DNA of 29,019 bases from the IMG/VR virus record IMGVR_UViG_3300036985_004639, positions 1 through 29,019 of that record; one strand, written 5' to 3'. Positions 1 to 29,019 of the stretch are shown here, one piece after another (positions within the stretch are counted from its first letter, which is position 1; each line of letters opens with the position of its first letter). The notes beneath the pieces were generated by a model. That model did no database searches. It was not told the DNA's origin and saw only the letters and a program-made list of their open reading frames with translations. The DNA is from a virus. The translations under genes were made by a program, and so were the position numbers.

Positions 1-2
1 GC

Positions 3-997: not shown

Positions 998-1000
998 GCC

Positions 1001-2665: not shown

Positions 2666-2666
2666 C

Positions 2667-3479: not shown

Positions 3480-3487
3480 GAGCGCGC

Positions 3488-5001: not shown

Positions 5002-5002
5002 T

Positions 5003-5320: not shown

Positions 5321-5332
5321 GAGGAGAAGACC

Positions 5333-7636: not shown

Positions 7637-7648
7637 AGGAGCGAAAAA

Positions 7649-8104
7649 ATGGCAACCGCCGCAAAAGGTAGGATAATGACTGGGGCACGGGCCCTGTTCA
7701 TGATCAATTCAGTCAAGGTCGGGTACGCCAAGACGGTGACCGTCGCGGAGTCGATCGATTATCAGCCGGTAGAGGTAATCGGAAATATCGAGGTCGAGGA
7801 GCACGTCCCGGTGGCTTACCGGGTGAGCATGACCGCCGCATTTTTCCGGCTGGTGGGGGAGACGGTCAAGAGCCTGGGGTATTTTCCCACCGCGGGCACC
7901 AGCTCCGACGACCACCTGACCAACATCCTCACGGTGTCCGATGTGCTCCAGGCGACGATCGAGGACACCAAGACTGGCAAAGTTCTTGCTACCCTGGAGC
8001 AAGTCAAGCTAGTCTCAAACAATTGGAACCTGGACGCTCGAGGTATCATGGGCAATGACGTGGAATTCGTGGCGATCCGCGTGAAGGATGAATCGGAAGC
8101 CTAG
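7649..8104 (+). CDS. tail tube protein
   Basis: The 151-residue product starts at ATG 7649 behind AAAGGAGCG, 12 bases after the sheath stop. Its size and beta-rich pattern fit the myovirus tube family: an early strand (GARALFMINSVKVGYAKTVT), VEVIGNIEVEEHVPVAYRVS, and the closing strands EQVKLVSNNWNLDARGIM and VEFVAIRVKD. Tube subunits stack as hexameric rings inside the sheath and form the DNA channel. The sheath-tube order immediately before chaperones and tape measure is the classical arrangement. An intrinsic terminator follows within 40 bases, as expected for a highly expressed major structural gene. Confidence 0.88.
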   Translation: MATAAKGRIMTGARALFMINSVKVGYAKTVTVAESIDYQPVEVIGNIEVEEHVPVAYRVSMTAAFFRLVGETVKSLGYFPTAGTSSDDHLTNILTVSDVLQATIEDTKTGKVLATLEQVKLVSNNWNLDARGIMGNDVEFVAIRVKDESEA

Positions 8105-8134
8105 CGAGAAGTGCCGGACTATTTAGGACCGGCG

Positions 8135-8180
8135 AAAAAGAGCTTTCAAGGTTTCCCCCCACCTTAAAGCTCTTTTTTTA
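8135..8180 (+). terminator. Rho-independent terminator after the tail tube gene
   Basis: A stem AAGAGCTTT(C)AAGGT pairs with ACCTTAAAGCTCTT around a TTCCCCCC-containing loop, with one bulged C. The 3' side runs into seven Ts (8173-8179), which extend a matching A-run on the 5' side. Directly upstream, GCCGG (8113-8117) can pair with CCGGC (8129-8133), a second smaller hairpin. This is the only clear terminator in the window and would partition high-level sheath/tube transcripts from the chaperone and tape measure genes. Confidence 0.88.
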
Positions 8181-8214
8181 TGATCTTGCCCCCGGGCCCT
8201 CCTATCTGTCATTT

Positions 8215-8228
8215 TTGATCCAGATCAC
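8215..8228. promoter_or_regulatory. candidate CRP/FNR-type dyad
   Basis: TTGAT-CCAG-ATCAC matches the FNR/Anr consensus TTGATnnnnATCAA at nine of ten defined positions and also resembles a CRP half-site pair. It lies in the 145-base gap between the tube and chaperone genes, downstream of the terminator and 22 bases before ATG 8250. I could not find a convincing -35/-10 pair nearby. It may be a chance palindrome; no phage regulator is known to act here. Confidence 0.25.
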
Positions 8229-8249
8229 TTTTCGCAAAGGATGCTCAAA

Positions 8250-8735
8250 ATGGACTCGAAAGAGCTAGCCAATCGACTGAACCCGCGTCACCTGGAAGTG
8301 CCCGAAGTAGAGGCCTTGCAGGCGGCCATGGCCGAAGAGGACCCCTTCCTGGTTATCCCGTCGGAGAAAAAGCCCAACCCAAAAGATAATCGGGAATACC
8401 CGTTCGTTTTTTCTCACACCGATGGGCATGGGAAAATCTGGAAAGGGAATTTCACGAACAAGGTGCTGACCATCCGAGACCGCCAGTCGGTGGGGGTGTT
8501 GCGGGCGCGGCTGGCCTCCGGGGTGCCGGTGGTGGCCCTGGATGACATGACCCAAGAGATCAATCTCATGATCGCGCACCTCACGTTTTCTCTGACCGAG
8601 CGGCCGGACTGGGCCAAGGATCTGCAAAACCTGGACGACATCCGGTTGCTGCAAGAGCTATACCTGGAGGTCGCCTCTCACGAGGCGCATTTTCTCGGAT
8701 ACGCAAAGGATAAAGCGGCAAGCGGAGCGCAATAA
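8250..8735 (+). CDS. tail assembly chaperone, first protein (gpG-like)
   Basis: I choose ATG 8250, which sits nine bases after AAAGG (8236-8240), over ATG 8241, which abuts it; the product is 161 residues. The protein has a conserved core (YPFVFSHTDGHGKIWKGNFT, then SVGVLRARLASGVPVVALDD) and a helical tail (LQELYLEVASHEAHFLGYA). Position between tube and tape measure, size, and the open overlapping frame at the 3' end identify it as the first tail assembly chaperone. In tailed phages, these bind the tape measure and recruit tube subunits and are absent from the virion. The sequence alone would be weak evidence; synteny carries the call. Confidence 0.7.
   Translation: MDSKELANRLNPRHLEVPEVEALQAAMAEEDPFLVIPSEKKPNPKDNREYPFVFSHTDGHGKIWKGNFTNKVLTIRDRQSVGVLRARLASGVPVVALDDMTQEINLMIAHLTFSLTERPDWAKDLQNLDDIRLLQELYLEVASHEAHFLGYAKDKAASGAQ
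8596..8735 (+). other. overlap compatible with +1 or -2 ribosomal frameshift between chaperone genes
   Basis: The frame of the downstream chaperone is open from just after TGA 8593-8595, through the 3' end of the first chaperone gene, to 9057. This gives a 140-base overlap. Joining the two needs a +1 or -2 shift. At the stop, CAA TAA T would allow a +1 move into AAT AAG GCG. Read this way, the fused protein continues NNKAGLVRLKHWWAGKYKLP without a break. No classical -1 slippery heptamer is relevant to this phase. The exact site is not determined. Confidence 0.4.
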
Positions 8736-8748
8736 TAAGGCGGGGCTG

Positions 8749-9057
8749 GTGCGGCTGAAGCACTGGTGGGCGGGCAAGTACAAGCTCCCCCCCAATCATT
8801 CGCTTTTTGAAACGCAATCGGTGGCCGAGCTGGTGCTCGAGCAATACGAGGACCTCTATTACCAGCGGGCCGAGCTGGAGGCGAACCTGGAGGATCTTTC
8901 TGGAGACGCGTTGCGGGAGGCTGAGCGCAAGATTAGGGAAATAGGCAAGGCGCTCGGCGAGAAAGTGGATGGAGAAGACGATTTGATCGACAAATGGGAA
9001 AGGGAGCTGGCCGAAGGAAAAATCCCCAACCTGGAGGAGCGACCCGATGGACATTAA
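8749..9057 (+). CDS. tail assembly chaperone, second protein or frameshift extension (gpT-like)
   Basis: Read from GTG 8749 (with AAGG 8737-8740 upstream), the product has 102 residues. It begins RLKHWWAGKYKLPPNHSLFE, a pattern I associate with the T-type extension of tail assembly chaperones, then a Glu/Leu-rich coiled coil (about 35-80). It overlaps the tape measure start by 11 bases. It could be made independently by reinitiation 13 bases after the first chaperone's stop, or as the C-terminal half of a frameshifted fusion; in most phages the second form dominates. The chaperone role follows from position and pattern. The GTG start is therefore provisional. Confidence 0.65.
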   Translation: MRLKHWWAGKYKLPPNHSLFETQSVAELVLEQYEDLYYQRAELEANLEDLSGDALREAERKIREIGKALGEKVDGEDDLIDKWERELAEGKIPNLEERPDGH

Positions 9058-11311
9058 GACCAATGTGGTGATCCAGGCCGAAACCCGCGGATTCGACAAG
9101 GCGCTGCGGGAGACCTTGGGCCTCACCCAGGGCGCACTCCAGGGCCTCAAAGACCAGGCGTCCGTCTATACGACCGTGCAAAAACAGGTGACGTTGCTGC
9201 AAGGCAAGATCGCGGAGCTAGCCAAACAGCAAATGGTGCTGAATCAGGAAATCACCAAGCTCGAGCGCGGTACTGAGGCATACGATTCTTTGAAAGAGTC
9301 GATAAAAGCTACTAATGAGGAAATGCAAAGCACTGAGCGACAGGTTCAGCTCACCACCCGGGCTTTCCGGTCAGAAGCGGATGCAGCCAAGAAATTGGCC
9401 GAAGCCCTCCAGGGCGTGAACGACAAGCAAACCTCCCAGAAGGGAGGGGCGCGCGGTTCTTTCACCCAGGGCTTGCTCCAGGGGGTGGCTCCAGGAGGGG
9501 CTGGTTTCCTCCAGCGGGGCCCTGGGATGAAGCAACAATTCCTGGGGCAGATGATTGGGCATGGAGCCAAGGAAGGGCTCGGAGGGCTTCTCTCGTCGCC
9601 TGTACAGGGCCTCGGGGGGATCTCCCGGGCGATGTCCGTGCTCCCGGGCGGGGGCCTTGTTGCGGGAATGATGGAAAACGCGATGAAGCACGCGGATACC
9701 GGGATGGCTTGGCGAGAGCAGCAATTCGCGGCGGCACCCTTCATGGGGGGCGGTGCATTGGGGAATATAGGCCCTATGCAAGATATCAATGCGGATTACG
9801 ATAGGCAAAAAGCAGATTTGCGCTTTGGAGGAGCTGATGCGATAAAAGCTAACTATACCAAGGAATTTAACCGCCAGATGCCAATGGCGAAAATGAATTA
9901 TGATGCTGAAAAGCATGCGTGGGACCCAGAAAATGCGCCTGATATAAGCCAATTAGCGGGAAAAGGCCCGGGATTTAGGCGGGCTAACGCTGAATTGAAA
10001 AAAAAAGCAGAATACCAATGGGGATCGGTTAAAGAGGATTACTTAAAGCAATTCGATAAATCGGCCGCATTGGCTATTGAAGATCGAAGCCGATTGCTTG
10101 ACCTGAAACGCAAAGAGGAACTAGCCCCCATTCACGCCGCACGCGAAGCGCCTTTTGAGGGGGCTAGGCGCGCTGGATACAATCTCATGGGCAAGACCCG
10201 CCAACAATCCACCGAGGAGGCGCTGGGCCTGGTACAGGCCGGTGGCGGGACGGTCCAGGGAGCACTCCAGTCGGGAATGCTCCCGACGGCATTCGCGGCG
10301 AAAACCGCTTTCGGGGTGGGCTCGGAGACCTCCGGGGCCTTTCTGGCGGCTGGGAGGCGAGGGGGCCTTGTCGGAGGAGCGGGCAAGGGGGCTGAAGGCC
10401 TGTCCAGGTCCTTATCGGACGCCGTGAAGCTGGGTTTGACGGGTTCGGACGCAATCAAATACCTCCAGACCATTGCATCGGGGATCGCGGCCTGGGAGCA
10501 ATCCGGAATTGAATTCAACAAAGACTCGTTTCGCAATATGGCCGATTCGCTCAATTCCGGGGGGATCGCCATGTCGCGGGCAATGAATATCGCTAGCGGC
10601 TTCCAGAATTACACCCAAGGAATGGGGCAGCGGGGGATTTCCGGAGGCCGGGATTTGATGCTCCTCCAGATGATGGGAGGCTTCAAGGGGGGCGGTGCCG
10701 ATGACCTCGAGCAGGCAACCCTCCAGCTCGAATCCATGCAGCAGCAGGGCGGGGTCAATGCGGTAGAGGCCGGGGGCCCGATGGGCGACTTCATGCAGCG
10801 CATGATGGAGATGGGCGGTGGGGGAGCTTCTGGCCGGCGCTTCCTTCGCGGGCAGCTCGGGCAGATGGGTATCCAGACCTCGGGACTGGAAATCAATGCC
10901 ATGGCCGAGCGGCTCACCGGCGAGCAGCTCTTGACCCCCGAGCAGCGAGATCAGATGGCAGCCGACAAGAAACGGCGGGAAGCCGGAGCCCAGCTCGGGG
11001 CAGATATTGCGACCCCTGGGGGGCTCCAAAAATTGGCAGCCGGTATGGTCCCGGGTGTGGTCAAAAACCAGGCGCAGGTGCAAGAGGAGCAGCTTGCGGT
11101 AGGCCTGAAAATGATTCCAGCCATGCAGACCTTGGCGCGGACCTCGGCGACCATGGCCGAGGCCTTCTCGAACCTCGCCGGCGGGGAGCAGGGGGCCCTC
11201 AACAAATTTCTGAAAGTCATAGAGGGCGCGACGGTTGCTCTGGATGAATTCACGAAAAACGTCGAAAAATACGGAGTAGCCAAGGCGCTAGGTATGCTGG
11301 GAGCAAATTAA
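9047..11311 (+). CDS. tail tape measure protein
   Basis: The 754-residue product starts at ATG 9047 behind GGAGGAG. Residues 10-125 form a long heptad-like coiled coil (VTLLQGKIAELAKQQMVLNQ and neighbours). A Gly/Met-rich middle and helical C-terminus follow. The tape measure sets tail length and occupies the tube lumen; at roughly 1.5 angstrom per residue, 754 residues predict a tail near 110 nm, an inference from the general rule. No peptidase or lysozyme motif is visible. The segment at about residues 245-345 (9781-10080) is unusual: I count about 43% G+C there against about 62% in the sampled line at 10621-10680. Its Lys/Asp/Tyr-rich composition differs from the flanks, suggesting an acquired insert. 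Confidence 0.85.
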   Translation: MDIKTNVVIQAETRGFDKALRETLGLTQGALQGLKDQASVYTTVQKQVTLLQGKIAELAKQQMVLNQEITKLERGTEAYDSLKESIKATNEEMQSTERQVQLTTRAFRSEADAAKKLAEALQGVNDKQTSQKGGARGSFTQGLLQGVAPGGAGFLQRGPGMKQQFLGQMIGHGAKEGLGGLLSSPVQGLGGISRAMSVLPGGGLVAGMMENAMKHADTGMAWREQQFAAAPFMGGGALGNIGPMQDINADYDRQKADLRFGGADAIKANYTKEFNRQMPMAKMNYDAEKHAWDPENAPDISQLAGKGPGFRRANAELKKKAEYQWGSVKEDYLKQFDKSAALAIEDRSRLLDLKRKEELAPIHAAREAPFEGARRAGYNLMGKTRQQSTEEALGLVQAGGGTVQGALQSGMLPTAFAAKTAFGVGSETSGAFLAAGRRGGLVGGAGKGAEGLSRSLSDAVKLGLTGSDAIKYLQTIASGIAAWEQSGIEFNKDSFRNMADSLNSGGIAMSRAMNIASGFQNYTQGMGQRGISGGRDLMLLQMMGGFKGGGADDLEQATLQLESMQQQGGVNAVEAGGPMGDFMQRMMEMGGGGASGRRFLRGQLGQMGIQTSGLEINAMAERLTGEQLLTPEQRDQMAADKKRREAGAQLGADIATPGGLQKLAAGMVPGVVKNQAQVQEEQLAVGLKMIPAMQTLARTSATMAEAFSNLAGGEQGALNKFLKVIEGATVALDEFTKNVEKYGVAKALGMLGAN

Positions 11312-12811
11312 ATGCCGACCACTGATTACCGCCCCGGGTACCAGGGCTCTGAAACAAGCTGGGTCAAGGTGGTGGTGTACCAGCGCACGGACGATCCATT
11401 TCTGGCCTCGGACGGGGTGCCGATCGAATTTTCTGGAAAACGAGCATCGGATAAAAATCCCGCGCTGATCGGGGTGAATACAGATAAAGCAATTGGTGTT
11501 CCAGGTAATTTCAATTTCACTGTAAAAGCTGACTCCGAAATATCGGACCTACTGAATATCATCGTGGATGACGCGTGGGTGGACCTGGTGTTCTACCGGC
11601 ACGATCAACCCTGGCATGTCATGCGCGGGCTGGTGGATGAAATTCGACGCTCGGAGACGGTGGTCAACGCCGCGACGGTGCAGACCTATACGATTAGCGG
11701 CCGGGATTTCCAAAAAATCTGGGAGCTGACCCCAGTCTGGTTTTCGCCCTATGCCGGCGCGGATCTTATCTCCGAGTCAATTGCTTTCGAGGTGTTCAAA
11801 GGAATTCCTGAAATCATCGGGGACCCGGCAACCGCGGTGCAGGCCTACTTGAAAAAATTCCTGGAGGCCGTAGGGCAATCGGCTGGGGTGAATTGGTGGC
11901 CACCAGATGGGATGCCATCGGCGACCGAGGGGGATTTCCTGGGTTCGGTGACGTTCAATGCCGATAATTTCTTGAACGAGCCTGGCCGCAAGGCATTCAA
12001 TCCGAATTTCATGCAACCCGACGGTACCCTTTGGGCTCTGGCAAAACAGCACTCTGACCCGGTTTTCACCGAGCTATATTGCGATGTGCTCCCGGACGGG
12101 GACCCGTTCAGCGGCCGGCTGGAGGCTGGAGACCCCCTCGAGCCTTCCGATACTCAAATGACGGTGGTGCTGCGCGATCGCCCTTTCCCGGTGACGGACC
12201 CTTTGATCGGAAATTTCTCTGACTCCTGGGATCGACTGCCCACCCACACGGTCCCGCGACAGCAGCTCCAGACGGTAGAAATCGGTCGATCGGGTCACGA
12301 GCGTTTCAACGCTTATTTTGTGGCCAGCATGCTGCACCAGGAGACCATGGGCAAGCACGGGCTCACTCTCATGGCCCCGCTCGTCGATAAGGAGGACATC
12401 AAGCGCCACGGGATGCGCCGTTTCGACGTGCAAAGCTCCCAGATGCCCGATGACCTGGATCCCACCGTCATGGCTGAAAAACAGCGGCGGATCGTGCGAG
12501 ATTGGTATTGTCTCAACCCCTATTTCCTCTCGGGGACCTTGGGGCTCGGGATGGGTCGGCCAGACATCCGGATCGGGAATAAACTGGTGATCCCTGGAGC
12601 TATTTCCCAGGATCAGAATGAAACCTATTACGTTGAAACTGTAGGGCATTCCTGGACGTTCGGGCGCGGTACGCGCACCCAGGTGGGGGTCACGCGCGGG
12701 TGGATCGGGAAAGACGCGTCCATGCGCGAAACCCTCCAGAAAATCTCGAACCGCTACAAGGTGCCGGCCATCGTGGACGAGTCGCTGATCGGCTGGGGAG
12801 AAATGGCATAA
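11312..12811 (+). CDS. baseplate hub protein (gp27/XkdQ-like)
   Basis: ATG 11312 follows the tape measure stop directly. The 499-residue product has the hub pattern in its N-terminal part. GVPGNFNFTVKADSEISDLL and DAWVDLVFYRHDQPWHVMRG correspond to paired barrel strands, followed by GLVDEIRRSETVVNAAT and YTISGRDFQKIWE. Such proteins form the trimeric hub that links the tube to the central spike. The C-terminal part (IRIGNKLVIPGAISQDQNET, then YYVETVGHSWTFGRGTRTQV) also fits hub domains that end in a beta domain. Placement between tape measure and spike supports this strongly. It overlaps the spike gene by one base at TAATG. Confidence 0.75.
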   Translation: MPTTDYRPGYQGSETSWVKVVVYQRTDDPFLASDGVPIEFSGKRASDKNPALIGVNTDKAIGVPGNFNFTVKADSEISDLLNIIVDDAWVDLVFYRHDQPWHVMRGLVDEIRRSETVVNAATVQTYTISGRDFQKIWELTPVWFSPYAGADLISESIAFEVFKGIPEIIGDPATAVQAYLKKFLEAVGQSAGVNWWPPDGMPSATEGDFLGSVTFNADNFLNEPGRKAFNPNFMQPDGTLWALAKQHSDPVFTELYCDVLPDGDPFSGRLEAGDPLEPSDTQMTVVLRDRPFPVTDPLIGNFSDSWDRLPTHTVPRQQLQTVEIGRSGHERFNAYFVASMLHQETMGKHGLTLMAPLVDKEDIKRHGMRRFDVQSSQMPDDLDPTVMAEKQRRIVRDWYCLNPYFLSGTLGLGMGRPDIRIGNKLVIPGAISQDQNETYYVETVGHSWTFGRGTRTQVGVTRGWIGKDASMRETLQKISNRYKVPAIVDESLIGWGEMA

Positions 12812-13761
12812 TGGCTAGTAATGTCATAGGGTTTGGCACAAGAATCCAGGAGGGCATTCCCCGACGGCCGGCGAGTCGGGGCGAGCAGCGCGCGGGCGGG
12901 CTCATGTTGCGGGGGGTGGTCATGGCCACCTACGTCTCTGACTCCCCCGGGCACCCGCACGAGGAGGACACCAGCAATCCGCCGGTGGCCGTCTACTGCG
13001 ATGTGCTCGTAATGCCCTCCATCTCCCGCCAGAGGTGGTTTGGGCTTCGGGGGGTGCTGGTATCCCAACCCCGCGGGGGAATGCACCACGGGGCCGTCTG
13101 GAAGCCCAGAGCCACCACGGTGGACCTCTCGAGCAGCCTGGACTCCTCTGGCGCGATCGCGAATCCCGCCTATCTCGACGGGGATCACGTCCTGATCGGG
13201 TTTTTGAACGACAATCTATCCCAGCCGGTGATCCTGTCTGGGTTGCCGCACCCGTCCACGGACATGGGAAACGAGACCAAAGACCTGGGTTTTCGCATGA
13301 AGCTCAAGGTTGCGGACGGGGACCCAGAAATCTGGAAACACCATGGGATCTGGTGGGGCGTGACCGACGCGGGGGATTTCCTGGTAGATACCACTTACGC
13401 GAACAACGGCAAGCTGGCGGCGGATGGGAAAGAGGCCGCGCCGAAAACCGACGGCTCGGCCGGGAATTTCACCGTCCGACTTCCGACCGGAGCCAAGCTC
13501 ATTCTGAAGATCGCCGACGGGGCGTCAATTGAGTGGTCGGGGTCGGCGGCGACAGCCCAGCTAATCGTGGGCAACGGGGCGGTCAAGGCGGCCATCGCCG
13601 ACCACTTGCAGCAGCTTTGGGGGACGCTCAAGAGCTGGCTGGAGGCGGTGACTGTGCCCACGGGGATGGGGCCCAGCGGGACGCCAAGCAACACCCCAGC
13701 GACCGCCTGGAACACAAACATCAATTCCAATCAGCTCAAATTTCCCGACAACGGAGCGTAA
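12811..13761 (+). CDS. baseplate spike protein (gpV / gp5 OB-fold-like)
   Basis: The start is ATG 12811 in the overlap TAATG; an earlier in-frame ATG at 12700 lies inside the hub gene and is rejected. The 316-residue product has an OB-fold signature at residues 123-147: YLDGDHVLIGFLNDNLSQPV followed by ILSGLPHP. This is the hallmark of gpV, gp5 and VgrG spike proteins. Before it, VSQPRGGMHHGAVWKPRA forms the other OB strands. The C-terminal part (LPTGAKLILKIADGASIEWS) is beta-helix-like, ending in a helix. The spike caps the tube and pierces the outer membrane on contraction. No lysozyme domain is present, unlike T4 gp5. Confidence 0.85.
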   Translation: MASNVIGFGTRIQEGIPRRPASRGEQRAGGLMLRGVVMATYVSDSPGHPHEEDTSNPPVAVYCDVLVMPSISRQRWFGLRGVLVSQPRGGMHHGAVWKPRATTVDLSSSLDSSGAIANPAYLDGDHVLIGFLNDNLSQPVILSGLPHPSTDMGNETKDLGFRMKLKVADGDPEIWKHHGIWWGVTDAGDFLVDTTYANNGKLAADGKEAAPKTDGSAGNFTVRLPTGAKLILKIADGASIEWSGSAATAQLIVGNGAVKAAIADHLQQLWGTLKSWLEAVTVPTGMGPSGTPSNTPATAWNTNINSNQLKFPDNGA

Positions 13762-13762
13762 C

Positions 13763-14239
13763 ATGGCGCTGAGTGCGAGCACGTTGAAAAGCCAGATCGA
13801 GAATATGGCGAATACGGACACCGAGGTGACCGCTTGTAGCAATTGGGCTACGGGCTTCGATGAGTATTTCAAGGGCGCAGGGTGCAATGGGGCTCCGGTA
13901 GCTCCGGCGGCACTGGTGGCGGCCAAGGCCGCCATGCAAGGGGCGCTGGCGGGCATGAGCGGGCCAGGACAGGGGTCGGTGAAGCTCCAGGCGGCCATTG
14001 TCGCCTACTGGGGGGCCCTGATCCCAGCGGTAGCCTGGCCTCCTGCGACGGTCATTACCCCCCCTCCAGGGCTTGCTGGTTTGGCTCCGGCGCTGGTGGC
14101 GGTATTCCTGGCCAATACTACCGGGAAAAAAAGCAAGGCGGATTCAGCCCAGACAATCGCGAACGCGATTCATGCAATTATGATCGTGGGTGGCTTGGGT
14201 GTTTTTCCGCCTCCGATTGGGCCCATGCCCATTTTGTAA
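13763..14239 (+). CDS. small Ala/Gly-rich baseplate-region protein
   Basis: ATG 13763 lies one base after the spike stop. The 158-residue product is Ala/Gly/Pro-rich and mostly helical. Recognisable segments are PAALVAAKAAMQGALAGMSG, LQAAIVAYWGALIPA and a Pro-rich VITPPPGLAGLAPALVAVF. It ends in a hydrophobic GGLGVFPPPIGPMPIL. The hydrophobic stretches are not long enough to be convincing membrane spans. Location between the central spike and the LysM wedge protein suggests a baseplate component or spike accessory. I do not recognise a named family. Confidence 0.5.
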   Translation: MALSASTLKSQIENMANTDTEVTACSNWATGFDEYFKGAGCNGAPVAPAALVAAKAAMQGALAGMSGPGQGSVKLQAAIVAYWGALIPAVAWPPATVITPPPGLAGLAPALVAVFLANTTGKKSKADSAQTIANAIHAIMIVGGLGVFPPPIGPMPIL

Positions 14240-14250
14240 AGGAGACTTCC

Positions 14251-16224
14251 ATGGCGGTAGCTTCAACGCTCGCATACGTCAAAGAGCTTCTCCGGCAAAA
14301 AATGGCCCAAGATGAAAATTTTCAGAAACGATTTCTCCATTTTTTTGAATTGCAGGTCCCGAAAGAAGTCGCTTATATCGAAAATCTTACTTTTCTTTTC
14401 CCGATTATCCTTCCGCCCCAGAGCTATTCCATGGAGGAGCCGTTTGCCGCGGAATTGAGCTTTACCCAGGGGGGCGGGCTCTGGGCAGAAGAAAATGGGA
14501 TCGTCCGGAGAATAATCCGGTTGCGGGGGAATACTGGCTGGAAACCGCGATCGCTCAAAGTAGAATTTAATTCCCCCAAAGCGGTGGATATTGCGAATTC
14601 GAAACAATCATACTCGCGGAAATTGCCGGATACCGTACTTTCCGCAATTTCCGGGCAGCGCCATTTCCAGTATCTCCAGGATTCAGTATTCCGGGCCTAC
14701 GCGGACCTGAAAGCCGACCCAGCCACGGCGAAAGACACCAAGCTGATTTACCACAACCCCCAGGATATGGAGCACTGGGTGGTGGTCCCTAACCGGTTTA
14801 CCCTTCTGCGGGATCGCGCCCAGCCGTTGCTGTACAACTACGATATCGAATTGTTTGCCGTCGAGCGCGGAGAAGACATTGACGCGGATTTTTCCGAGGA
14901 CAAATCCATTTTCGATCTCGTAAAAGGCGCTATGAGCCTGGTGAAATTAGGGCTCGATCTATTGCAGGGGGCCATCAATGACTTGATCGCGCTGGAGGGC
15001 GTGATTATGGGGTTTGTGAAAAACATCGATACCCTGATCGCTCGAGGTGTCGAGGTGGGGGAAGCGGTCCAGGATTATGTCGAGGGGCGCGCGGAATTGA
15101 TCGATGCTACTTTTGATTATGTGGCGGCGCACCTTACAAATTGGGAAACCGCGGCCGGGACAATCGCGATGTACATGGATCGCAATGAAGGGGATAAATC
15201 GGTACCAGAGGAGGTATTACAGAAAATCCGAAAGGTGGCCGATGCGATCAATTTGATATTGGCGCACCCGGAGCTTTTCGAGGAGCCCGTCGAGGCCGCG
15301 GTGCGAAAGACGCGGGAGGACCAGGAATTCCGCCGAGGGATCAATTCCAATCGACAAGTGCAGGCCCTCATAAGCCCGGCGCCGACCTCGTTCGAGGCGG
15401 TGCGGGAAAGGGGCACCGAGCTGACTCCTGGGGACGTGCAGATCGGCGAGGGGGATATTCTGGCCGGGAGCACCATTCCAGTGTACCGCAATGCTCGGCA
15501 AATCGTCCTCACCGCGGATGACACCTTGCCCAGCCTGGCAGCACGGTATCTGGGAGACGCGCGGAAATGGCAGCTTTTGGCGATGTTTAATGGGCTCAAA
15601 CCCCCTTACATCGATAACCAAGCGTCTCCCCCATTGGCTCGAGGCGTGGGTACAGGTTCGACGGGTATCGGAGGAGCTTCTGGCCCGCTCGAGCGTCCGT
15701 TCACCGGTGTGCTGGGTATTGGATCGAAAATCGCAATCCCGACCAATACGCGATCGGTGCAGGATATGGGTATTTTGCCGGTGCTGGGTGCGCGCACGGA
15801 ATTGCCGGCGGAAGAGCGGGCCCTCGGGGCGGACTTTTGCCTGGAAGCGGTTCCAGTAACGGTCAATTCCAGCCAGGTCAAATACGATATCCCGATTGAT
15901 ACGGAAATGGGATCGACCGACGCCAAGATCGTGCGGGGGATGGCCAATCTGAAACAGGCGATCGTGATCCGCTTGTGCACTGAACAGGGCACTGATTTGT
16001 TGTATCGCCGTCTAGGCGTCAAGCGGTTAATCGGATTGCGAAGCACCCTGGTGGACCTCGAGCTTTGCCGCTTTCGGATTTCGCAAGCTATCTCCGGCGA
16101 TCCGCGAATTGTGACTGTAAAGAGCGTGGATCTCGTGCAAACAGACGATATGCTGGAAGTGGATTTAGTGGCCGAGGTAAGGGGTTTTTCGGAAAAACAA
16201 GAGATCCATACTACGATCCAATGA
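14251..16224 (+). CDS. fused LysM baseplate protein and gp25-like wedge protein
   Basis: The start is ATG 14251 behind an excellent AAAGGAGA; the open frame extends upstream but that part lies in the previous gene. The 657-residue product has three parts. Residues 35-110 resemble the N-terminal domain of LysM tail proteins (FLFPIILPPQSYSMEEPFAA, then IRLRGNTGW). Residues 220-350 are a long helical insert. A LysM domain follows at about 415-460 (TADDTLPSLAARYLGDARKW). Residues 540-657 form a gp25/gpW-like wedge domain: MGSTDAKIVRGMANLKQAIV, then LGVKRLIGLRSTLVDLELCR and DMLEVDLVAEVRG. T4 keeps the LysM protein gp53 and gp25 as separate neighbours in the wedge; here they appear fused. Confidence 0.78.
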   Translation: MAVASTLAYVKELLRQKMAQDENFQKRFLHFFELQVPKEVAYIENLTFLFPIILPPQSYSMEEPFAAELSFTQGGGLWAEENGIVRRIIRLRGNTGWKPRSLKVEFNSPKAVDIANSKQSYSRKLPDTVLSAISGQRHFQYLQDSVFRAYADLKADPATAKDTKLIYHNPQDMEHWVVVPNRFTLLRDRAQPLLYNYDIELFAVERGEDIDADFSEDKSIFDLVKGAMSLVKLGLDLLQGAINDLIALEGVIMGFVKNIDTLIARGVEVGEAVQDYVEGRAELIDATFDYVAAHLTNWETAAGTIAMYMDRNEGDKSVPEEVLQKIRKVADAINLILAHPELFEEPVEAAVRKTREDQEFRRGINSNRQVQALISPAPTSFEAVRERGTELTPGDVQIGEGDILAGSTIPVYRNARQIVLTADDTLPSLAARYLGDARKWQLLAMFNGLKPPYIDNQASPPLARGVGTGSTGIGGASGPLERPFTGVLGIGSKIAIPTNTRSVQDMGILPVLGARTELPAEERALGADFCLEAVPVTVNSSQVKYDIPIDTEMGSTDAKIVRGMANLKQAIVIRLCTEQGTDLLYRRLGVKRLIGLRSTLVDLELCRFRISQAISGDPRIVTVKSVDLVQTDDMLEVDLVAEVRGFSEKQEIHTTIQ

Positions 16225-16233
16225 GGTGAGCCC

Positions 16234-17646
16234 ATGCCCCGATTTCAAACGAAACGATACGAGCAAATCCTGACTGAAATGCTAGCCAAGCTCGTGGCGC
16301 GCACGGACCTATCCGATATTTCCGATTCAGCGGCGGTGAAACACTTGCTGGCTACGGCGGCCCGACAAGATGACGAGCAATACTACCAGATGCACCTCCT
16401 CTTGCAGCTTTTCTCCATAGACAAAGCGACCGGCGAGGATCTGGACGAGCGGGCGATGGATATCCAGCCCGGGACCATCGTGCGGGCGGCTGCGACTAAA
16501 GCCGTGGGGACGGTGGTGCTCACGCGCGCGGGTACCACGGGGACTATCATCCTTCCGGCGGGAATTCGGATGAAAACTGCGGGGGGAATAATTTTTGTGA
16601 CTACGGCGGCGGGGAGTATCACCGCGTCGAGCCCCGAGCAGATCGGCGGGCATGGGGTCGGCCGGGATTCTGGGGTGATCCCTGTTATCGCGGAAGTTGC
16701 TGGCGTGGCTGGAAATGTGACCTCGAACACGATCATAAAGTTTGTCAGTAAACCGGTAGGGGTCGATTCAGTGACAAACCCTTCCGGCTGCATCCACGGG
16801 GTGGACACCGAGACCGACGCGGCATTTCGAGCGCGGATCAAGCTATTTGTGGCCTCACTTGGGCGATCTACGGTGCCGGCGATCGAAAGTTGCGTCCTTC
16901 AGTTAATTGATCCGGATACCGGGGCGGTGGTCCTTTACAGCAAGGCGGTGGAGGACATCATCAACCCGGGGAATGTAACGCTGTACATCGATGACGGCAC
17001 CGGTTATGCCGAAAGCGCGGAAGCGGTCACCGGGGAAGAGCTGACCGAGGGGCTCGGAGGGCCTCCGGCGGATACCGCGGCCGGAGGAGAAACTACGCTG
17101 TATCTGGATTACGCGCCGATCAAGCTGAATGCTGGCATCACCCTGGTTAGCTCGGAGCGTGGGGAGTTGACCGAGGACGACACCTATTTTGTCAACCCAG
17201 CCAGTGGGCAGATTGTTTTTGACCCGGCGCTGGTGGCGACAGAAACAATCACGGCGCATTATCACAAATACCTGGGGCTGATTGCTCTGGCGCAAAAAGT
17301 AGTGGATGGCGATCCGGACGATCGAGTGAATTATCCTGGCTACCGGGCGGCGGGGATTCTGGTGGTGGTGCAGGCCCCCCAGGTGCTCATGCAGACGGTA
17401 TTAATATCTGTGACGGTGGCGGAAGGGTACGATGACGCAAGCGTGAAGGTGGAGGTGGCCGAGGCGATCAAGACATACATCAATAGCCTGGGTATTTCTC
17501 GGGATGTGCTCCGCTCGGAGCTGATTTCCAGAGCCCAGCGAGTGACTGGGGTTTACGACATCGTGCTGACCACTCCAGCGACGAACGTGATTCTATTGGA
17601 TGACCAGCTAGCGCGGGTTTCCGACCAGACCATTACTGTGAACTAG
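16234..17646 (+). CDS. baseplate J-like wedge protein
   Basis: The 470-residue product starts at ATG 16234 behind GAGGTGAG. It has the baseplate J pattern: an N-terminal helical part (TDLSDISDSAAVKHLLATAA, then GEDLDERAMDI); an early beta domain (GTVVLTRAGTTGTIILPAGI, then GGIIFVTTAAG); and the later signature (VDTETDAAFRARIKLFVASL) that precedes helix GRSTVPAIESC. The C-terminal part carries VQAPQVLMQTVLISVTVAEG. J/gp6-like proteins form the wedge ring that transmits the contraction signal to the sheath. The region around residues 265-350 (EELTEGLGGPPADTAAGGE onwards) is an extra beta-rich insertion. Directly follows the gp25-like gene, the usual W-J order. Confidence 0.88.
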   Translation: MPRFQTKRYEQILTEMLAKLVARTDLSDISDSAAVKHLLATAARQDDEQYYQMHLLLQLFSIDKATGEDLDERAMDIQPGTIVRAAATKAVGTVVLTRAGTTGTIILPAGIRMKTAGGIIFVTTAAGSITASSPEQIGGHGVGRDSGVIPVIAEVAGVAGNVTSNTIIKFVSKPVGVDSVTNPSGCIHGVDTETDAAFRARIKLFVASLGRSTVPAIESCVLQLIDPDTGAVVLYSKAVEDIINPGNVTLYIDDGTGYAESAEAVTGEELTEGLGGPPADTAAGGETTLYLDYAPIKLNAGITLVSSERGELTEDDTYFVNPASGQIVFDPALVATETITAHYHKYLGLIALAQKVVDGDPDDRVNYPGYRAAGILVVVQAPQVLMQTVLISVTVAEGYDDASVKVEVAEAIKTYINSLGISRDVLRSELISRAQRVTGVYDIVLTTPATNVILLDDQLARVSDQTITVN

Positions 17647-17655
17647 GGGGTTGCC

Positions 17656-18060
17656 ATGGCCATGGAAATTTCAGCTATCTCCCCCGAAGTCGTGCTGGAA
17701 AACGGGGGTCATAAAATTGAGGTGACGGGAACTTTCAACCTCGGGCATGAATACATGATCTACCTGGGGACCAAAAACGGAATTTTCGATCATGCCTGCT
17801 ATTCGGGAGTACCCGGGCAGGGTAACGTAATTCGGCCGTATACCGCAACCGCTTTGGTGGCGTACACCCCGCGACTGTATCTCGGATCTGGGCAGCACGT
17901 CACGGTACGGGATCTCACTGTTCCCGAAATCGAGACGCTGGCTGCGGCGCTCACGGTATGCTACGAGTGGTTTTCGTCTGCGGTTTTTTCGATTCGCAAG
18001 CTACTCCCGAATTTTTACAAAACTGGCCCGAGGGACATTGACCAGGTGGCCCCTATCTGA
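17656..18060 (+). CDS. small protein with TIG/IPT-like domain
   Basis: The first ATG (17656), behind AGGGGGTTG, is preferred over ATG 17662. In the 134-residue product, residues 5-90 read as an IPT/TIG-like Ig fold: ISPEVVLENGGHKIEVTGTF, then HEYMIYLGTKNG and YTPRLYLGSGQHVTVRDL. Residues 92-115 form a helix. In many phages the gpI protein follows J, but this is too short and differs; the gpI-like region is instead found inside the 19936-24090 gene. It is probably a baseplate-periphery adaptor for the fibres that follow. The TIG assignment is by pattern only. Confidence 0.5.
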   Translation: MAMEISAISPEVVLENGGHKIEVTGTFNLGHEYMIYLGTKNGIFDHACYSGVPGQGNVIRPYTATALVAYTPRLYLGSGQHVTVRDLTVPEIETLAAALTVCYEWFSSAVFSIRKLLPNFYKTGPRDIDQVAPI

Positions 18061-18068
18061 GGTGACAT

Positions 18069-19907
18069 ATGGCGTACAAAGGCAAAGTCTACACATCGTT
18101 TTTGGGATCGGCCTACCACCAGATCGAAATCATCCGGGATTTCCTTCTGGCCTGCGGCTGGAAGCTAGTGGGCCCCACGGCGACGGCGGCCATGCGTACC
18201 GCGCAGGATGACCTCCATGGGCATATCCTGGGCTGGTATCTGCATTCCAATGGCGAGGACGGCACCAAGGATCTGCACCTGCATATGGGGGTGCAGGAGG
18301 ATAGCGCCTCGCCGATGTCCTGCCCCTCCTATTCTTACCTGTCCGCGAATATCGATGACACGGTGACCACTATTCCAGTCAATGACTCCAGCGTTTTTGC
18401 CGCTACCGGGCGGGTGAAAATCGGAGGCGAGCTGATCACTTATACCGGCGCTGCGGCCAATGAGCTGACCGGCTGCACCCGGGAGGCGGATGGATCTACC
18501 AAGGCGGCTCATTTTAGCCGAGAGGTAGTGGTGCAGTGCGGGTTTTTCAAGCCCTATTTTGATCTGTATTCTTACCGGGATTTGATCCATTCCATCGCCG
18601 AGTCGGATGATGCTTTGGGGGTTACCTGGGTACTGGGTATTGCTACCACGACAGGAGCCGTTACCGGGCTGGATGGATACAAATCCGGGGCTTTCAAGTA
18701 CGGGGCGCTTCTGCGCGTGCTCGAGGGGGATCACGCGGGCAAGGTCCGGCCTATCTGGGCAGACGTTGCCGGGGATTTGTCTTACGCGCCGTTTTTCAGC
18801 GCACCCGGGCCAGTCAATTGCGATATCGTCTCCCAGGGATTTCTCCCGTGCGTCTCTCGTCGAGACGAACGGGCGGGCGCTAATTGGGCGCACCATACTA
18901 GCGCGCCGAAAGTTGGTTTTGACGGAGACGGGTCAACCGCGTTGCTTTGCGTGGGGAGCAAAGACGGATTTCTGCTAGGTTCACAAATTGGTGAATCCGA
19001 TTACTACAATTTTGTGTACTACGGCACATACATTTCCAATGGCTCGCCGGTGCTAGACGCGATCAGCTCCCATACGGTACCCGGCGGAAATATCCCGGCG
19101 GCGGCAACCATCGTGCACGTTGAGGACACCACCAAGTATGTGGTCGGTCGGAAATACCGGATTCTCGCCCAAGACTACCAGGATTGGATCGATAACTGGG
19201 ATCGGAGCGCGGATACAACTATGGGGGCGACTCCCGGAGATTGGCCAGACCTTGACGTGGACGAGATCCCAACCGAGCTGGTATTGGTCGATTCGATCGA
19301 TGCGGTCAATAGCGAAATCACTTTCCGGACTCCGTTGATTTATTCTTATCGCGCCTATGCAGTAATCGCCGAAGATCCGCAACCGATCATTTCTTACTGT
19401 GATACGGGATCAGTCTTGTCGGGAGATTTAATAAATTCCAGTGGATACGCTATTCAAAATCCATTTTTTGCTGTAGCCACGTACTATTTAGCCTCTTGCC
19501 CGCACCATAGAGTGCGTTGGAGATGTTGTTTTTTGGATCTAGGCAATACGGAAGATCCCTGGGGCCCCGTCGGTGCCCCCAATTATATTCTATGCACTGA
19601 ATGCGCCCGGCAAACAATGAACCCCGGTGAACATATGAATGATGGGCTAGACGGATATACCGACTCCTGGCCATTGGCGTTATACACGGTTGAGGGGGTA
19701 GGCGACGATACCGGCATTAACTCGATAGCGCGATTACTAGGGTATCTCCCTATAATTCGAAAATGCCAGTATGATTTTGAAGAATTCGAAGACGAGAGAG
19801 GCGAAGACTACGGCTACATTATGTGGAATAGGCAAGCTGCGCTATTCGAATGGGTGCAGCACGAGACATTTGGATACCACGTTGTGGGGCCCATGCTTTG
19901 GAGTTGA
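18069..19907 (+). CDS. large tail-surface protein with Cys-rich C-terminus
   Basis: ATG 18069 lies behind GAGGTGA that overlaps the upstream stop. The 612-residue protein opens with a compact domain (KVYTSFLGSAYHQIEIIRDF, then LLACGWKL). At about residues 90-155, it has a beta module (TTIPVNDSSVFAATGRVKIG, then ELITYTGAAANELTGCTREA) often seen in tail proteins. The C-terminal 140 residues, from about 470, contain a cysteine cluster: Cys477, Cys486-Cys487, and Cys509-x2-Cys512 (CTEC). The cluster could bind metal or form disulfides. Nucleotide composition there is visibly more AT-rich than in the first half of the gene. A fibre or adhesin role is inferred from location after the baseplate genes; no enzyme motif is recognised. 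Confidence 0.55.
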   Translation: MAYKGKVYTSFLGSAYHQIEIIRDFLLACGWKLVGPTATAAMRTAQDDLHGHILGWYLHSNGEDGTKDLHLHMGVQEDSASPMSCPSYSYLSANIDDTVTTIPVNDSSVFAATGRVKIGGELITYTGAAANELTGCTREADGSTKAAHFSREVVVQCGFFKPYFDLYSYRDLIHSIAESDDALGVTWVLGIATTTGAVTGLDGYKSGAFKYGALLRVLEGDHAGKVRPIWADVAGDLSYAPFFSAPGPVNCDIVSQGFLPCVSRRDERAGANWAHHTSAPKVGFDGDGSTALLCVGSKDGFLLGSQIGESDYYNFVYYGTYISNGSPVLDAISSHTVPGGNIPAAATIVHVEDTTKYVVGRKYRILAQDYQDWIDNWDRSADTTMGATPGDWPDLDVDEIPTELVLVDSIDAVNSEITFRTPLIYSYRAYAVIAEDPQPIISYCDTGSVLSGDLINSSGYAIQNPFFAVATYYLASCPHHRVRWRCCFLDLGNTEDPWGPVGAPNYILCTECARQTMNPGEHMNDGLDGYTDSWPLALYTVEGVGDDTGINSIARLLGYLPIIRKCQYDFEEFEDERGEDYGYIMWNRQAALFEWVQHETFGYHVVGPMLWS

Positions 19908-24565: not shown

Positions 24566-25729
24566 ATGGCCCTAACAGTAGAGCATGTACAAATTTTGAA
24601 TTCGAAAGAAGTGAAGCTGACCGTACAAGAAATGCGCGATGGGGCAACCTACGAGCTAACCGTCTCGAACGTGCAGGACATCAACGGCGATACGATAGAT
24701 CCGGCCAATGCTACCGCGGAATTTATCGGGATCGGGACCTTGCCGCAAGTGGTGAGTATCGCCAAAGTGGATGTCACCCACCTGTCAGTGCTATTCGATG
24801 AAGTCATGGCCGATGACGCCAATTTCATCAATGCCGCTAATTACGCGGTGACGGGCCAGAGCACTCCAGGCGTGGTCGGTGTTGCGCGATCGGTTGACGG
24901 GCTTACCGCTACTCTGGAGCTGGACGAGGATTTGGAAACCGGGACCTACGGAATAGCTGTAGAAAACGTAGTAGACGCTGGTGGCAATTTAATTGATGGG
25001 GCTCATGATTATGCAGAGACCGCGATAGTTATCGGGCCGTGGCGTGATCATGCTTCTCTGGGTACTAACCTGGTGGCGCATTACAAGATGGAGGATGAAA
25101 CCGATTCTTCCGATAATGGATACGATGGGGCTTATGAAAGCGGGACTCCCGACTCGATTACCGGAAAAATAGGAAATGCTCTGAGCTTTGTTCCCTCGGT
25201 TCGGATGAATATCCCAGCCAATGCGGAATTGAACGCGCTGAATGCTTTTACCATGGCCGGCTGGTTCAAAATTACAACGATCGCCGGTTCATGGCATACG
25301 CTGTGGGGGCGTACCGGGCAAGTGAGCATGACTGTGGTCGGGAGCGGGGATCATGTCGGGAAAGCGTACATGGGAATTTATGTAAACCCGCCCACATATA
25401 CACTCAGGGAAACGCTGACTTCGACGACGGCGCCCGAGAATGAATGGTGCTTTATCGTGGGGTCCTTTAACGGATCTACTGCAACCAAAGTACACATAAA
25501 TGGCGTAGTACGCGGAACCGCGTCTTTTACGAGCACCACCCTTGCTACGGTGGATGAGACCCATCCATGGCGAATCGCGATTGCGCAAAACAATACGGAG
25601 AAAAACGGAAATGAGGACATGCACAGCCCGTTGGCTGGCGGAGCCGACGAGCTAACTGTATGGGGCCGGGAATTGACCCAACCGGAAATAGATTATCTGT
25701 ACAATAGTGGAGCCGGGCGTGCTTTCTAA
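24566..25729 (+). CDS. tail adhesin with Ig-like anchor and LamG lectin domain
   Basis: ATG 24566 lies two bases after the upstream stop, behind GCGAGGT. Residues 1-155 are Ig-like, containing two SbsA-type units (PQVVSIAKVDVTHLSVLFDE, then INAANYAVTG) and are clearly homologous to the start of the next gene. Residues 165-385 form a textbook LamG/concanavalin-like lectin domain: LVAHYKMEDETDSSDNGYDG, then KIGNALSF, FTMAGWFKI and DELTVWGRELTQPEIDYLYN. LamG domains bind carbohydrates, often with calcium, so a receptor-binding role at the tail surface is inferred. It is a 387-residue protein with no recognisable catalytic motif. Confidence 0.75.
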   Translation: MALTVEHVQILNSKEVKLTVQEMRDGATYELTVSNVQDINGDTIDPANATAEFIGIGTLPQVVSIAKVDVTHLSVLFDEVMADDANFINAANYAVTGQSTPGVVGVARSVDGLTATLELDEDLETGTYGIAVENVVDAGGNLIDGAHDYAETAIVIGPWRDHASLGTNLVAHYKMEDETDSSDNGYDGAYESGTPDSITGKIGNALSFVPSVRMNIPANAELNALNAFTMAGWFKITTIAGSWHTLWGRTGQVSMTVVGSGDHVGKAYMGIYVNPPTYTLRETLTSTTAPENEWCFIVGSFNGSTATKVHINGVVRGTASFTSTTLATVDETHPWRIAIAQNNTEKNGNEDMHSPLAGGADELTVWGRELTQPEIDYLYNSGAGRAF

Positions 25730-25744: not shown

Positions 25745-28700
25745 ATGGCAGTGCTCACGGTACAATCAGTTGAAATAATCAGCAGCACAACGGTACGCTT
25801 GGAAGTCACCGGTATGCAAGTGGGGGTAGTTTACAATGTAGAAGTGAGCGAGGAGATAGAATCCCTTTCTGGCAGATTGATAGATCCAGCGTACAATGCT
25901 GCGGATTTTACGGGAGACGGCACTATTCCCCAGCTTCTTTCGGTCGTGTTGGTAGACGCGCTGCACATAGATTTGGTTTTCTCAAAGCCCATGATTGACG
26001 ACCCCATATTGCTGTACCCTACCAACTATACCGTAACTGGCGACATGGATAGCGGCACCACCCTGGTGGAGCGCAATGAAGCTGGAGACGGGGTGCGGCT
26101 CACGTTAGCAGATCCTTTGCTGTACGGCGACTATCGCGTTGCCCTGGACAATTGCCCCGATACCGATGGAAATCTTGTACCGCCAGAAAACGCAGAAATG
26201 GATTTTTCCTCTGTTCGAGAAAATCCGGTAAGCGATCTGGTTACGATGCTAACCGACAATACGGACGAGTGCCTGATCGAGGTTAGGGCAATTGGCATAA
26301 TGGTGGATGGAGTATACCCAGAAATCGCACTTAGGCTTTTCGGGGAAGAGGTGGTCCGCTGGAGTGATGTCCGGGGCAAGGTCGAATACTATCAAGCGGA
26401 AAGAAATGGCTATCTGCATGCGGGAAAAGTAACCCCCGCTGATATCCAGGTGGCGTATACCAATGACGTGCTAGGCGGCCCCGAGCAAGAGTGCTTGGCT
26501 TTCTGGGAGCTGGACGCGGCTTCTACAGTAACGGCCGCATACCAATATGAGCGGTTCGATCGCTTTCGCCCTTCCGCAAAAATGACGCTGACTGCCCCCT
26601 CGGCCGGAGGAGATGTCAATCGGCTTAATGCGCTGAGCCAGGATCTCCCCGAGGTGGTGGTGGGTCAGACGGTTATCATTTCTGGCCAGGTTAAAATGCT
26701 GGAGGGAGTTACCGCGCGGGTGCGCTTTACGCTAGGGACGGAAGAGGGGCTCCTGGTATCCACTCTGGATTTGGAGGGGACAGGGGACTGGGAAAGTTTT
26801 CGACTGGAGCCCCTGGTGGCGACTCTGGGGAATACAGAGGGGCGAGTTAGCTTGATCGTGGTATCCCCGGATGTCGGGAGCACTGTGGCCGAATGGCGAG
26901 ATATTCGGGCGGGGCTCGAGCTTCTGGAGAATTGTAATTTCGAGACCACGATCGAGCCCTGGTACACCCATCTCGGGAGCAAGTGTTTCCCTACGCTCTT
27001 GACCGAAGAGGCGGGCCCTTACGGTCACGCCGAGCTTACGATCCTGGAGACAGAGCCCAGCAAGCGGTTTTACCATAGCGTTTCTTTTGATGCTCACCGG
27101 GGCAAGGTGGTGCTTTTTGGCGGGAATGATGGAGTGGTCAAGGGCGATACCTGGGAATATACAACGGCCACCCATACCTGGGCAAAAATAACACCGGCCA
27201 CGACCTCCCCCAGTGCTCGAGGCCTGCACGCCGCGTGCTACGACAGCCTACGGCACCGGGTAATCATCTCCGGCGGGCAAGATAGCGGTGGGGGACATTT
27301 GCAGGACCTTTGGGCGTGGGATGGAGTGGACTGGACCGACATCACGCCGGTGGGCACCAAGCCCGGGGCTCGGCGAGCGCATGCGATTGCCTATGATTCC
27401 AATCGTGACGTGATCATGCTCTTTGGCGGGGTAGCCAGTGTAAAAAACAATGAAACCTGGGAGTATAATTGCGCAACCGGTTTGTGGGCTGAGATTTTCC
27501 CAGTCGCAGGCATAAAACCGTCTCCTCGCCAGTATCACACCATGGAATACGATACCGTGAAAAGACGGCTGGTGCTCTTTGGAGGTAGGACAGAGACCAA
27601 CCATTCGGATGAGACCTGGGAATACAACGGAGGGATTCAATCCTGGGCGCTGATGACAATAGCGGGGGATAAGCCGACCGCGCGGGATGAGCACAAAATG
27701 GCCTATGATTCGGTGCGTAGGCGCATGCTTATTTTCGGCGGGAACGACGGGGCTTACAGTGCTACTTCTTTTGATGACGAAACCTGGGAATATGATAGCG
27801 CGACCGTGAGCTGGAGTATGGTGCAGGGCGGCGGAGATCCTGGAGGTAGCAATCCAATGGGGCGGGTTGCTTTCGGCATGACATATGACTCTATTGCCCA
27901 GCGTAGTGTGCTATTCGGCGGATGGACAGGGGCCATCCGTAATAATGAAACTTGGGAATTTTCAGGGAGCACGACAAGCTGGGCGCTGCAATATGCCGGG
28001 TATGACCCTCTGAATTACGGATCAAGCCATTGGAATTCTATCCTCCAGGCTCCGGGAGAAATCCCCGACGGATCGCAGATCCGACTTCGCGGAAAATTCA
28101 GAGCCCCAGTGGATACTGAATTGCGTATCCACGTATACGCCATACCGTGGACCACGGGGGTGATTGGGGCCTGGGGGCCCTTTTCTGGATCAGGAGACTG
28201 GGAGGATTTCGAACTAGCTGATGTGGTAGTGGATACCGACCATCGCGATGTGCAAATCCGGTTGGCGATCCATCTCCCAGATGCGACAGGGAGCTGGGCT
28301 GACTGGAAAGATATTTCGCTCACGCGAAACATTATCCGAAACGGCACTTTTTCCGACCGAGGAGCGTTGATCGACGCGGTTTTGATTGACGGGAAAATTT
28401 ACGAGACCGAGGGCGCCGAGGTGCTATCCACGGGATCGTGGCTTCCCGGAGACGGGGCGTTACCCAGCCCGGGATACCGGCAAACCGAGGTGCTGACCAA
28501 TAACGGGTATTTCGATTTTGCCGGGGTGAGTGACGAGGAGATCCTGGATGGTGTTGACGCGCGGATCGATACCTACAGGAAAGGAAACGGGGTCATTTCC
28601 GTAGTGAATGGGGTTGGCCAACCGGTGGTAGGGGTTGACGTGACGGTGGAGCAGCTTACCCATTCTTTCCTTTTTGGGTCGGGTATATTCGAATGGTATG

Positions 28701-29019
28701 AGAGTTATGTGGCCCCAGGGTATCCTCCTCTGACCGAGGCCCAGCAGCTTTGGTCCGATACGTGGCGCGCGTTGTTTTTGGACGTTTTCAATTTCGCAAC
28801 CCTCCCCTATTACTGGGTGAGCGGCGAGCTGGAAAATGGGTCCATGCTTCACGCGGCAAATTACGAGGCCCTAGCCTGGTGTCTGGCCAATGGAGTACAG
28901 GCCAAGGGGCACCCTATCTTTTGGAACGCGGACGAGCCAGCGTGGATCAATAATTGGAGTGATCTAGATGCGGTAAAAGCGCGGGTTTTCGGATACCTCG
29001 AAAAGTGTATCGGAAATAG
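25745..29019 (+). CDS. tail protein with Ig-like anchor, Kelch propeller, CBM-like and GH10-like domains (partial at 3' end)
   Basis: Starts at ATG 25745 behind GAAGGGG and stays open to the window edge (1091 codons plus two bases). Residues 1-155 match the anchor of the preceding gene (PQLLSVVLVDALHIDLVFSK). Residues 225-390 look like a CBM4/9-type jelly-roll, and a second copy begins near 392 (ENCNFETTIEPWY). It is interrupted at 440-748 by six Kelch repeats (HTMEYDTVKRRLVLFGGRTE type, each with a GG and a WEY/WEF), then resumes to about 860. From about 938 it follows a GH10 glycanase pattern (DARIDTYRKGNGVISVVNGV, then FNFATLPYYW at 1015-1024 and KGHPIFW at 1054-1060). The catalytic Glu motifs would lie beyond the edge, so activity cannot be judged. 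Confidence 0.8.
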   Translation, partial: MAVLTVQSVEIISSTTVRLEVTGMQVGVVYNVEVSEEIESLSGRLIDPAYNAADFTGDGTIPQLLSVVLVDALHIDLVFSKPMIDDPILLYPTNYTVTGDMDSGTTLVERNEAGDGVRLTLADPLLYGDYRVALDNCPDTDGNLVPPENAEMDFSSVRENPVSDLVTMLTDNTDECLIEVRAIGIMVDGVYPEIALRLFGEEVVRWSDVRGKVEYYQAERNGYLHAGKVTPADIQVAYTNDVLGGPEQECLAFWELDAASTVTAAYQYERFDRFRPSAKMTLTAPSAGGDVNRLNALSQDLPEVVVGQTVIISGQVKMLEGVTARVRFTLGTEEGLLVSTLDLEGTGDWESFRLEPLVATLGNTEGRVSLIVVSPDVGSTVAEWRDIRAGLELLENCNFETTIEPWYTHLGSKCFPTLLTEEAGPYGHAELTILETEPSKRFYHSVSFDAHRGKVVLFGGNDGVVKGDTWEYTTATHTWAKITPATTSPSARGLHAACYDSLRHRVIISGGQDSGGGHLQDLWAWDGVDWTDITPVGTKPGARRAHAIAYDSNRDVIMLFGGVASVKNNETWEYNCATGLWAEIFPVAGIKPSPRQYHTMEYDTVKRRLVLFGGRTETNHSDETWEYNGGIQSWALMTIAGDKPTARDEHKMAYDSVRRRMLIFGGNDGAYSATSFDDETWEYDSATVSWSMVQGGGDPGGSNPMGRVAFGMTYDSIAQRSVLFGGWTGAIRNNETWEFSGSTTSWALQYAGYDPLNYGSSHWNSILQAPGEIPDGSQIRLRGKFRAPVDTELRIHVYAIPWTTGVIGAWGPFSGSGDWEDFELADVVVDTDHRDVQIRLAIHLPDATGSWADWKDISLTRNIIRNGTFSDRGALIDAVLIDGKIYETEGAEVLSTGSWLPGDGALPSPGYRQTEVLTNNGYFDFAGVSDEEILDGVDARIDTYRKGNGVISVVNGVGQPVVGVDVTVEQLTHSFLFGSGIFEWYESYVAPGYPPLTEAQQLWSDTWRALFLDVFNFATLPYYWVSGELENGSMLHAANYEALAWCLANGVQAKGHPIFWNADEPAWINNWSDLDAVKARVFGYLEKCIGN
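27068..27988 (+). repeat. six Kelch-type repeats coding a beta-propeller
   Basis: Six successive units of about 50-60 codons each carry the order aromatic/His - YDS-like turn - V-x-x-FGG - (D/N)xTWEY - W. Examples are HSVSFDAHRGKVVLFGG, HAIAYDSNRDVIMLFGG and GMTYDSIAQRSVLFGG. Six copies would close a six-bladed propeller. The units have diverged at DNA level, unlike the Fn3 repeats upstream. Confidence 0.8.

Follow-up and report, generated by a model that had tools for sequence, protein, structure and literature searches.

The last gene of the phage contig analysed here encodes a multidomain tail-region protein (P0001) in which a complete six-bladed Kelch propeller is, very probably, nested within a carbohydrate-binding-like jelly roll (copy B), where it would interrupt the loop that links core strands one and two; a GH10 xylanase-like domain follows immediately. 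The case for this nesting is built on profile comparisons of the sequences that flank the propeller, and its central element is that the two flanks, B1 and B2, behave as complementary parts of one CBM4/9-like domain. The window, i.e., the whole IMG/VR virus record of 29,019 bases, holds the gene as a single uninterrupted frame of 1091 codons, and the motifs from which an initial annotation of this DNA had pieced together two carbohydrate-binding-like copies and a Kelch domain all lie within that one protein. In order, it comprises an Ig-like region, a CBM60-like module, copy A, copy B split by the Kelch propeller, and the GH10 xylanase-like domain:

25745..29017, + strand: P0001, tail-region multidomain protein of 1091 amino acids, 3' end cut by the contig end
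25745..26236, + strand: Ig-like region, residues 1-164, similar to the N-terminus encoded by the adjacent gene 24566-25729 (Big_5)
26237..26515, + strand: CBM60-like (xylan-binding) module, residues 165-257 (Pfam CBM60 E 0.003, below cut-off; match to L035)
26516..26920, + strand: copy A, uninterrupted, predicted CBM4/9-like jelly roll, residues 258-392 (AlphaFold model; CBM fold matches; CBM_4_9 HMM positions 59-140)
26915..27046, + strand: B1, putative N-terminal part of copy B, residues 391-434 (CBM_4_9 HMM positions 7-26 alone, 7 to about 50 in the join)
27077..27994, + strand: six-bladed Kelch propeller, very probably inserted in copy B, residues 445-750 (Pfam, AlphaFold, structural matches)
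28013..28333, + strand: B2, putative rest of copy B, residues 757-863 (BLASTP to copy A; CBM_4_9 HMM positions 52-137)
28334..28576, + strand: linker and GH10 lead-in, residues 864-944, opening with the CBM-like start motif IIRNGTF
28577..29017, + strand: GH10 xylanase-like domain, N-terminal part, residues 945-1091 (match to 8b73; truncated by the contig end)

All genes of the window run in the same direction, and a series of large adhesin-like proteins is encoded downstream of genes for a tail sheath (phrog_279 match in PHROGs), a tail protein (phrog_1015 match) and baseplate J (Pfam Baseplate_J and phrog_6). P0001 is best explained as a tail-associated adhesin/depolymerase of a phage with a contractile tail. 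The preceding gene (24566-25729), which also carries a LamG domain, and the 25745-26236 region have alike Ig-like N-termini, a resemblance between adjoining adhesin genes suggesting tandem duplication of their N-termini.

The six-repeat Kelch domain recognized in the initial annotation is borne out by PF24681 (E 1.2e-46, 159 bits against a cut-off of 50), by Kelch_3 (144 bits against a cut-off of 22, in six stretches) and by six FGG/SGG motifs between residues 459 and 725. AlphaFold prediction for residues 388-876, run with an alignment of 13 viral and planctomycete Kelch homologues from which copy A was left out as a row because MAFFT put it inside the Kelch region, yields a closed six-bladed ring at approximately residues 445-750 with pLDDT values mostly above 90. 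The propeller model matches KLHDC2 with a Z score of 37.9 and an rmsd of 1.9 over 286 residues, as well as the designed six-bladed SAKe6 (Z 33.6, rmsd 1.8), where the correspondence across 266 of 281 residues indicates that the ring is complete. In a closed Kelch propeller the first and last strands share one blade and the two chain ends are hence held close together, which makes such a domain well suited for insertion into a loop.

For the flanks we turned to a CBM_4_9 HMM of length 144, derived from 39 uninterrupted planctomycete domains found with PF02018 and not including P0001 itself. In the native protein B1 aligns to HMM positions 7-26 with 8.8 bits, a score matched by no shuffle of 2000 and by 0 of 2582 real windows in a decoy test, and B2 aligns to positions 52-137 with 12.2 bits. 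When the Kelch segment is removed and the cut points are left free, B1 and B2 are read as one domain that spans HMM positions 7-137 (131 positions) at 28.9 bits; the scan was made without use of the Kelch borders, and the best excision, 433/756 to 434/757, nevertheless falls just outside the predicted propeller. Decoys granted the same freedom (13 by 13 positions) peaked at 21.6 bits for 250 real sequences and at 21.2 bits for 250 shuffles of B1, with none of the 500 reaching the native value. Lengthening B1 from residue 405 to 435 lifts the join score from 12.6 to 27.0 bits, which indicates that the whole of B1 contributes, and the score drops again with added Kelch residues. At a fixed cut of 440/757 the join scores 19.2 bits, where 2000 shuffles reach at most 6.3 and 0.46% of joins that substitute a real decoy window for B1 attain the same score, and when HMMs were rebuilt from 20 domains drawn at random, 27 of 30 still gave a best match that spans the junction. 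Together, these data support B1 and B2 as complementary, ordered halves of one CBM_4_9-like domain, and thereby the earlier proposal of a propeller nested in a jelly roll, here from an external profile; the outcome named initially as refuting it, two separate complete domains, is not seen in the profile matches.

Structure prediction, which had been proposed as a check, delivers only part of the picture: the propeller is modelled with high confidence and copy A moderately well, but the copy B flanks stay at a pLDDT of about 40 in the 388-876 run and no model shows B1 packed on B2, the flanks having failed to fold because the alignment holds no homologue outside the Kelch region. Curated Pfam CBM_4_9 (PF02018) returns no match for copy A, B1, B2 or the join, and Pfam, NCBIfam and PHROGs searches with the copy B flanks likewise give no CBM_4_9 match; our verdict on family is that copy B appears CBM4/9-like and is not a curated member.

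Copy A provides a second, partial view of the same fold. B2 (757-863) shares 22 of 94 residues with it (BLASTP E 5e-9; local score 95, shuffle mean 29), and this likeness ends at the Kelch border, with extension into the Kelch tail scoring only negatively, which argues that the beginning of the domain is missing from B2. B1, on the other hand, shows no significant similarity to the N-terminal part of copy A, either in direct comparison or by anchored extension. The alignment of copies A and B put forward initially thus stands for their C-terminal parts only, and, with B1 not detectably similar to the first part of copy A, the A/B pair alone is no proof of nesting. Copy A itself does appear as an uninterrupted CBM4/9-like domain, but it begins only at about residue 258, the preceding residues 165-257 being CBM60-like, and it matches the 39-domain HMM at positions 59-140 only. 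Its AlphaFold model, obtained with B2 as the sole second row, has eight strands, a mean pLDDT of 62 (75-84 in the core) and a pTM of 0.62, and finds its best structural matches in CBM61, CBM16, CBM4-2, the CBM22 of a GH10 enzyme and C-terminal phage tailspike domains; further matches are to phage proteins with a CenC-like carbohydrate-binding annotation. As all structural matches remain under Z 8, with those to CBMs up to 7.6, a jelly-roll beta-sandwich is the likely fold class of the model, whereas its family is not settled. Mapped onto this model, the Kelch domain of copy B would fall between strand 1 (278-285) and strand 2 (291-304), in agreement with the initial placement of the break in the loop after the first inner strand.

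The same domains could in principle be arranged as beads on a string, with B1 a linker or degenerate CBM start, followed in sequence by an ordinary Kelch domain and by B2 as a sandwich that is shortened but complete. Such sequential arrangement is usual for domains, AlphaFold left B1 unfolded, and copy A, which meets the CBM_4_9 HMM only from position 59, illustrates that members can have an unrecognizable N-terminal part. We nonetheless regard this arrangement as unlikely: B1 covers exactly the CBM_4_9 positions missing from B2, and in the right order, the free-cut join outscores every decoy with its best cut at the propeller borders, and the same cut scan upstream of copy A does not rise out of the noise (18.0 bits at best). 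Much the same borders speak against a chimeric contig, in which assembly or recombination would have placed a Kelch segment into a CBM. The protein is known from a single contig, with no independent one over this part: the sister contig L005 / L044 / L045 (IMGVR_UViG_3300037487_000907), which is 99.9% identical over window positions 1-19195 and reaches further upstream, stops at 19195 and thus short of P0001. Yet the frame stays open over all of its codons, base composition by codon position is alike in Kelch and flanks, and the propeller is complete and the cut coincides with domain borders, as would not be expected of a random chimera; we consider an artefact of this kind highly improbable.

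A third reading would leave the nesting intact and change only the identity of the host domain, which might be a split jelly roll of non-CBM4/9 type such as CBM6, CBM16, CBM61 or a non-binding virion sandwich. It draws on the copy A model, whose matches to CBM61, CBM16, phage tailspike domains, CBM22 and CBM4-2 all fall in the same range, and on the absence of a Pfam CBM_4_9 call; against it, the CBM_4_9 HMM covers 131 positions of the joined copy B and no other family model matched. We hold it to be a real possibility but not a probable one, and retain the CBM4/9-like assignment for the domain into which the Kelch propeller is set.

In residues 165-257 CBM60 (PF16841) scores 18.4 bits (E 0.003), and the same stretch scores 60 against the module that precedes GH10 in the planctomycete protein L035, where shuffles give 28 +/- 5; since the curated cut-off of 28.2 bits is missed, though the similarity to L035 is significant by shuffles, the module is best called CBM60-like only. 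Nesting of this module in copy A finds no support in the cut scan upstream of copy A with the CBM_4_9 HMM, as reported above. Directly after copy B, at window 28325-28363, a third CBM-like start motif, IIRNGTF, is seen (HMM 6-17, -1.1 bits), followed by the GH10 lead-in. Residues 945-1091 resemble the Beta-xylanase 8b73 (phmmer E 3.4e-15), and PF00331 matches at E 8.9e-5, below its cut-off, the domain being truncated; both catalytic glutamate positions of GH10 lie beyond the contig end. The phage tail-region protein thus closes, at window 28577-29017, with a GH10 xylanase-like domain whose lead-in is planctomycete-like.

Homologues without the Kelch segment, which the initial annotation had suggested seeking, did not turn up: searches of viral contigs, phage records and species genomes gave no P0001 orthologue, either with the Kelch or lacking it, and matched only Kelch alone or GH10 alone; one genome match, L043, looks unrelated. 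Several viral contigs (L008 2684-5203, L012 3854-6193, L010, L011 and L013) encode large structural proteins with a centrally placed Kelch propeller, flanked by sequence that matches no known family. As further nested cases L008, L012 and L010 were rejected, their joined flanks giving no match and the post-Kelch part of L008 reaching only 3.7 bits; the L008 protein may be nested too, although this is not supported so far. It is a doubtful generalization that Kelch insertion into loops of virion domains is a recurrent phage route to branched adhesins, with P0001 as one case and L008 and L012 as others.

Each ingredient of this architecture has precedents. According to PMC7848910, xylan utilisation systems commonly contain CBM4 pairs inserted in GH10 barrels, and discontinuous arrangements account for 10-20% of domain combinations. 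The Bacteroidetes Xyn10C-like GH10 xylanases (GH10|CBM4, e.g., Pm25; PMC7848910) resemble P0001 in combining GH10 with CBM4 modules and in having one domain set inside another, but there two CBM4s sit inside the GH10 barrel, whereas in P0001 Kelch would sit inside a CBM4/9-like domain, with GH10 downstream and the whole encoded in a phage tail region. The split CBM20 of TgLaforin (PMC9254107) is likewise a carbohydrate-binding beta-sandwich interrupted by inserts, which are, however, predicted to be unstructured where P0001 has a folded and complete propeller; the two also differ in CBM family. In the Vibrio cholerae sialidase, a Type 2 Asp-box propeller (PMC2716378), a propeller and a lectin-like domain are nested in a glycan-acting protein, as proposed here, but in reverse, the inserted domain breaking the propeller. 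Kelch propellers are also found in giant-phage structural proteins, including those of PhiPA3 and Noxifer and CBB_552, a Kelch protein present in virions of phage CBB (PMC5259590); the passages on CBB consulted there describe no nesting in a CBM, and these giant-phage Kelch proteins, unlike P0001, have no GH10. The Planctomycetota CBM60-GH10 proteins L035 and L036 share with it a CBM60-like module ahead of GH10 and the same lead-in, but have no CBM4/9 copies and no Kelch and are not from phages. A Kelch domain nested in a CBM was not reported in the full text of the open-licence papers searched, and the architecture can to that extent be called novel; as nested insertions as such are common, and both split CBMs and Kelch proteins of phages have been described, P0001 is a new combination rather than a new principle.

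In light of these results we propose that the propeller would form a side-arm on a single loop, attached by two short links (approximately residues 435-444 and 751-756) with both chain ends together, so that the insertion would leave the GH10-like domain as near to the CBMs as before. The CBM60-like and CBM4/9-like modules could then hold a host-surface polysaccharide (a beta-glycan) for the putative GH10 domain to cut, in the manner of tail-borne depolymerases, and the propeller might provide a second host-surface contact with a ligand of its own. Such an arrangement suggests that a phage adhesin can take up a rigid binding-type domain of 300 residues sideways via a loop, with the order and spacing of binding and cutting domains left undisturbed, and would offer a one-step route to a new surface contact.

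A xylanase-like enzyme tied, with several CBM-like modules, to a phage tail region has few parallels that we could find. Phage records yielded no other clear GH10 case, and a degenerate scan of viral contigs, limited to KGHP-type motifs, returned seven chance matches and no GH10. A faecal GenBank record labelled 'Bacteriophage sp.' (L002, MT835797.1) does contain GH10, together with a glucosidase-like gene and apparent sugar ABC transporter genes, and looks like bacterial chromosome.
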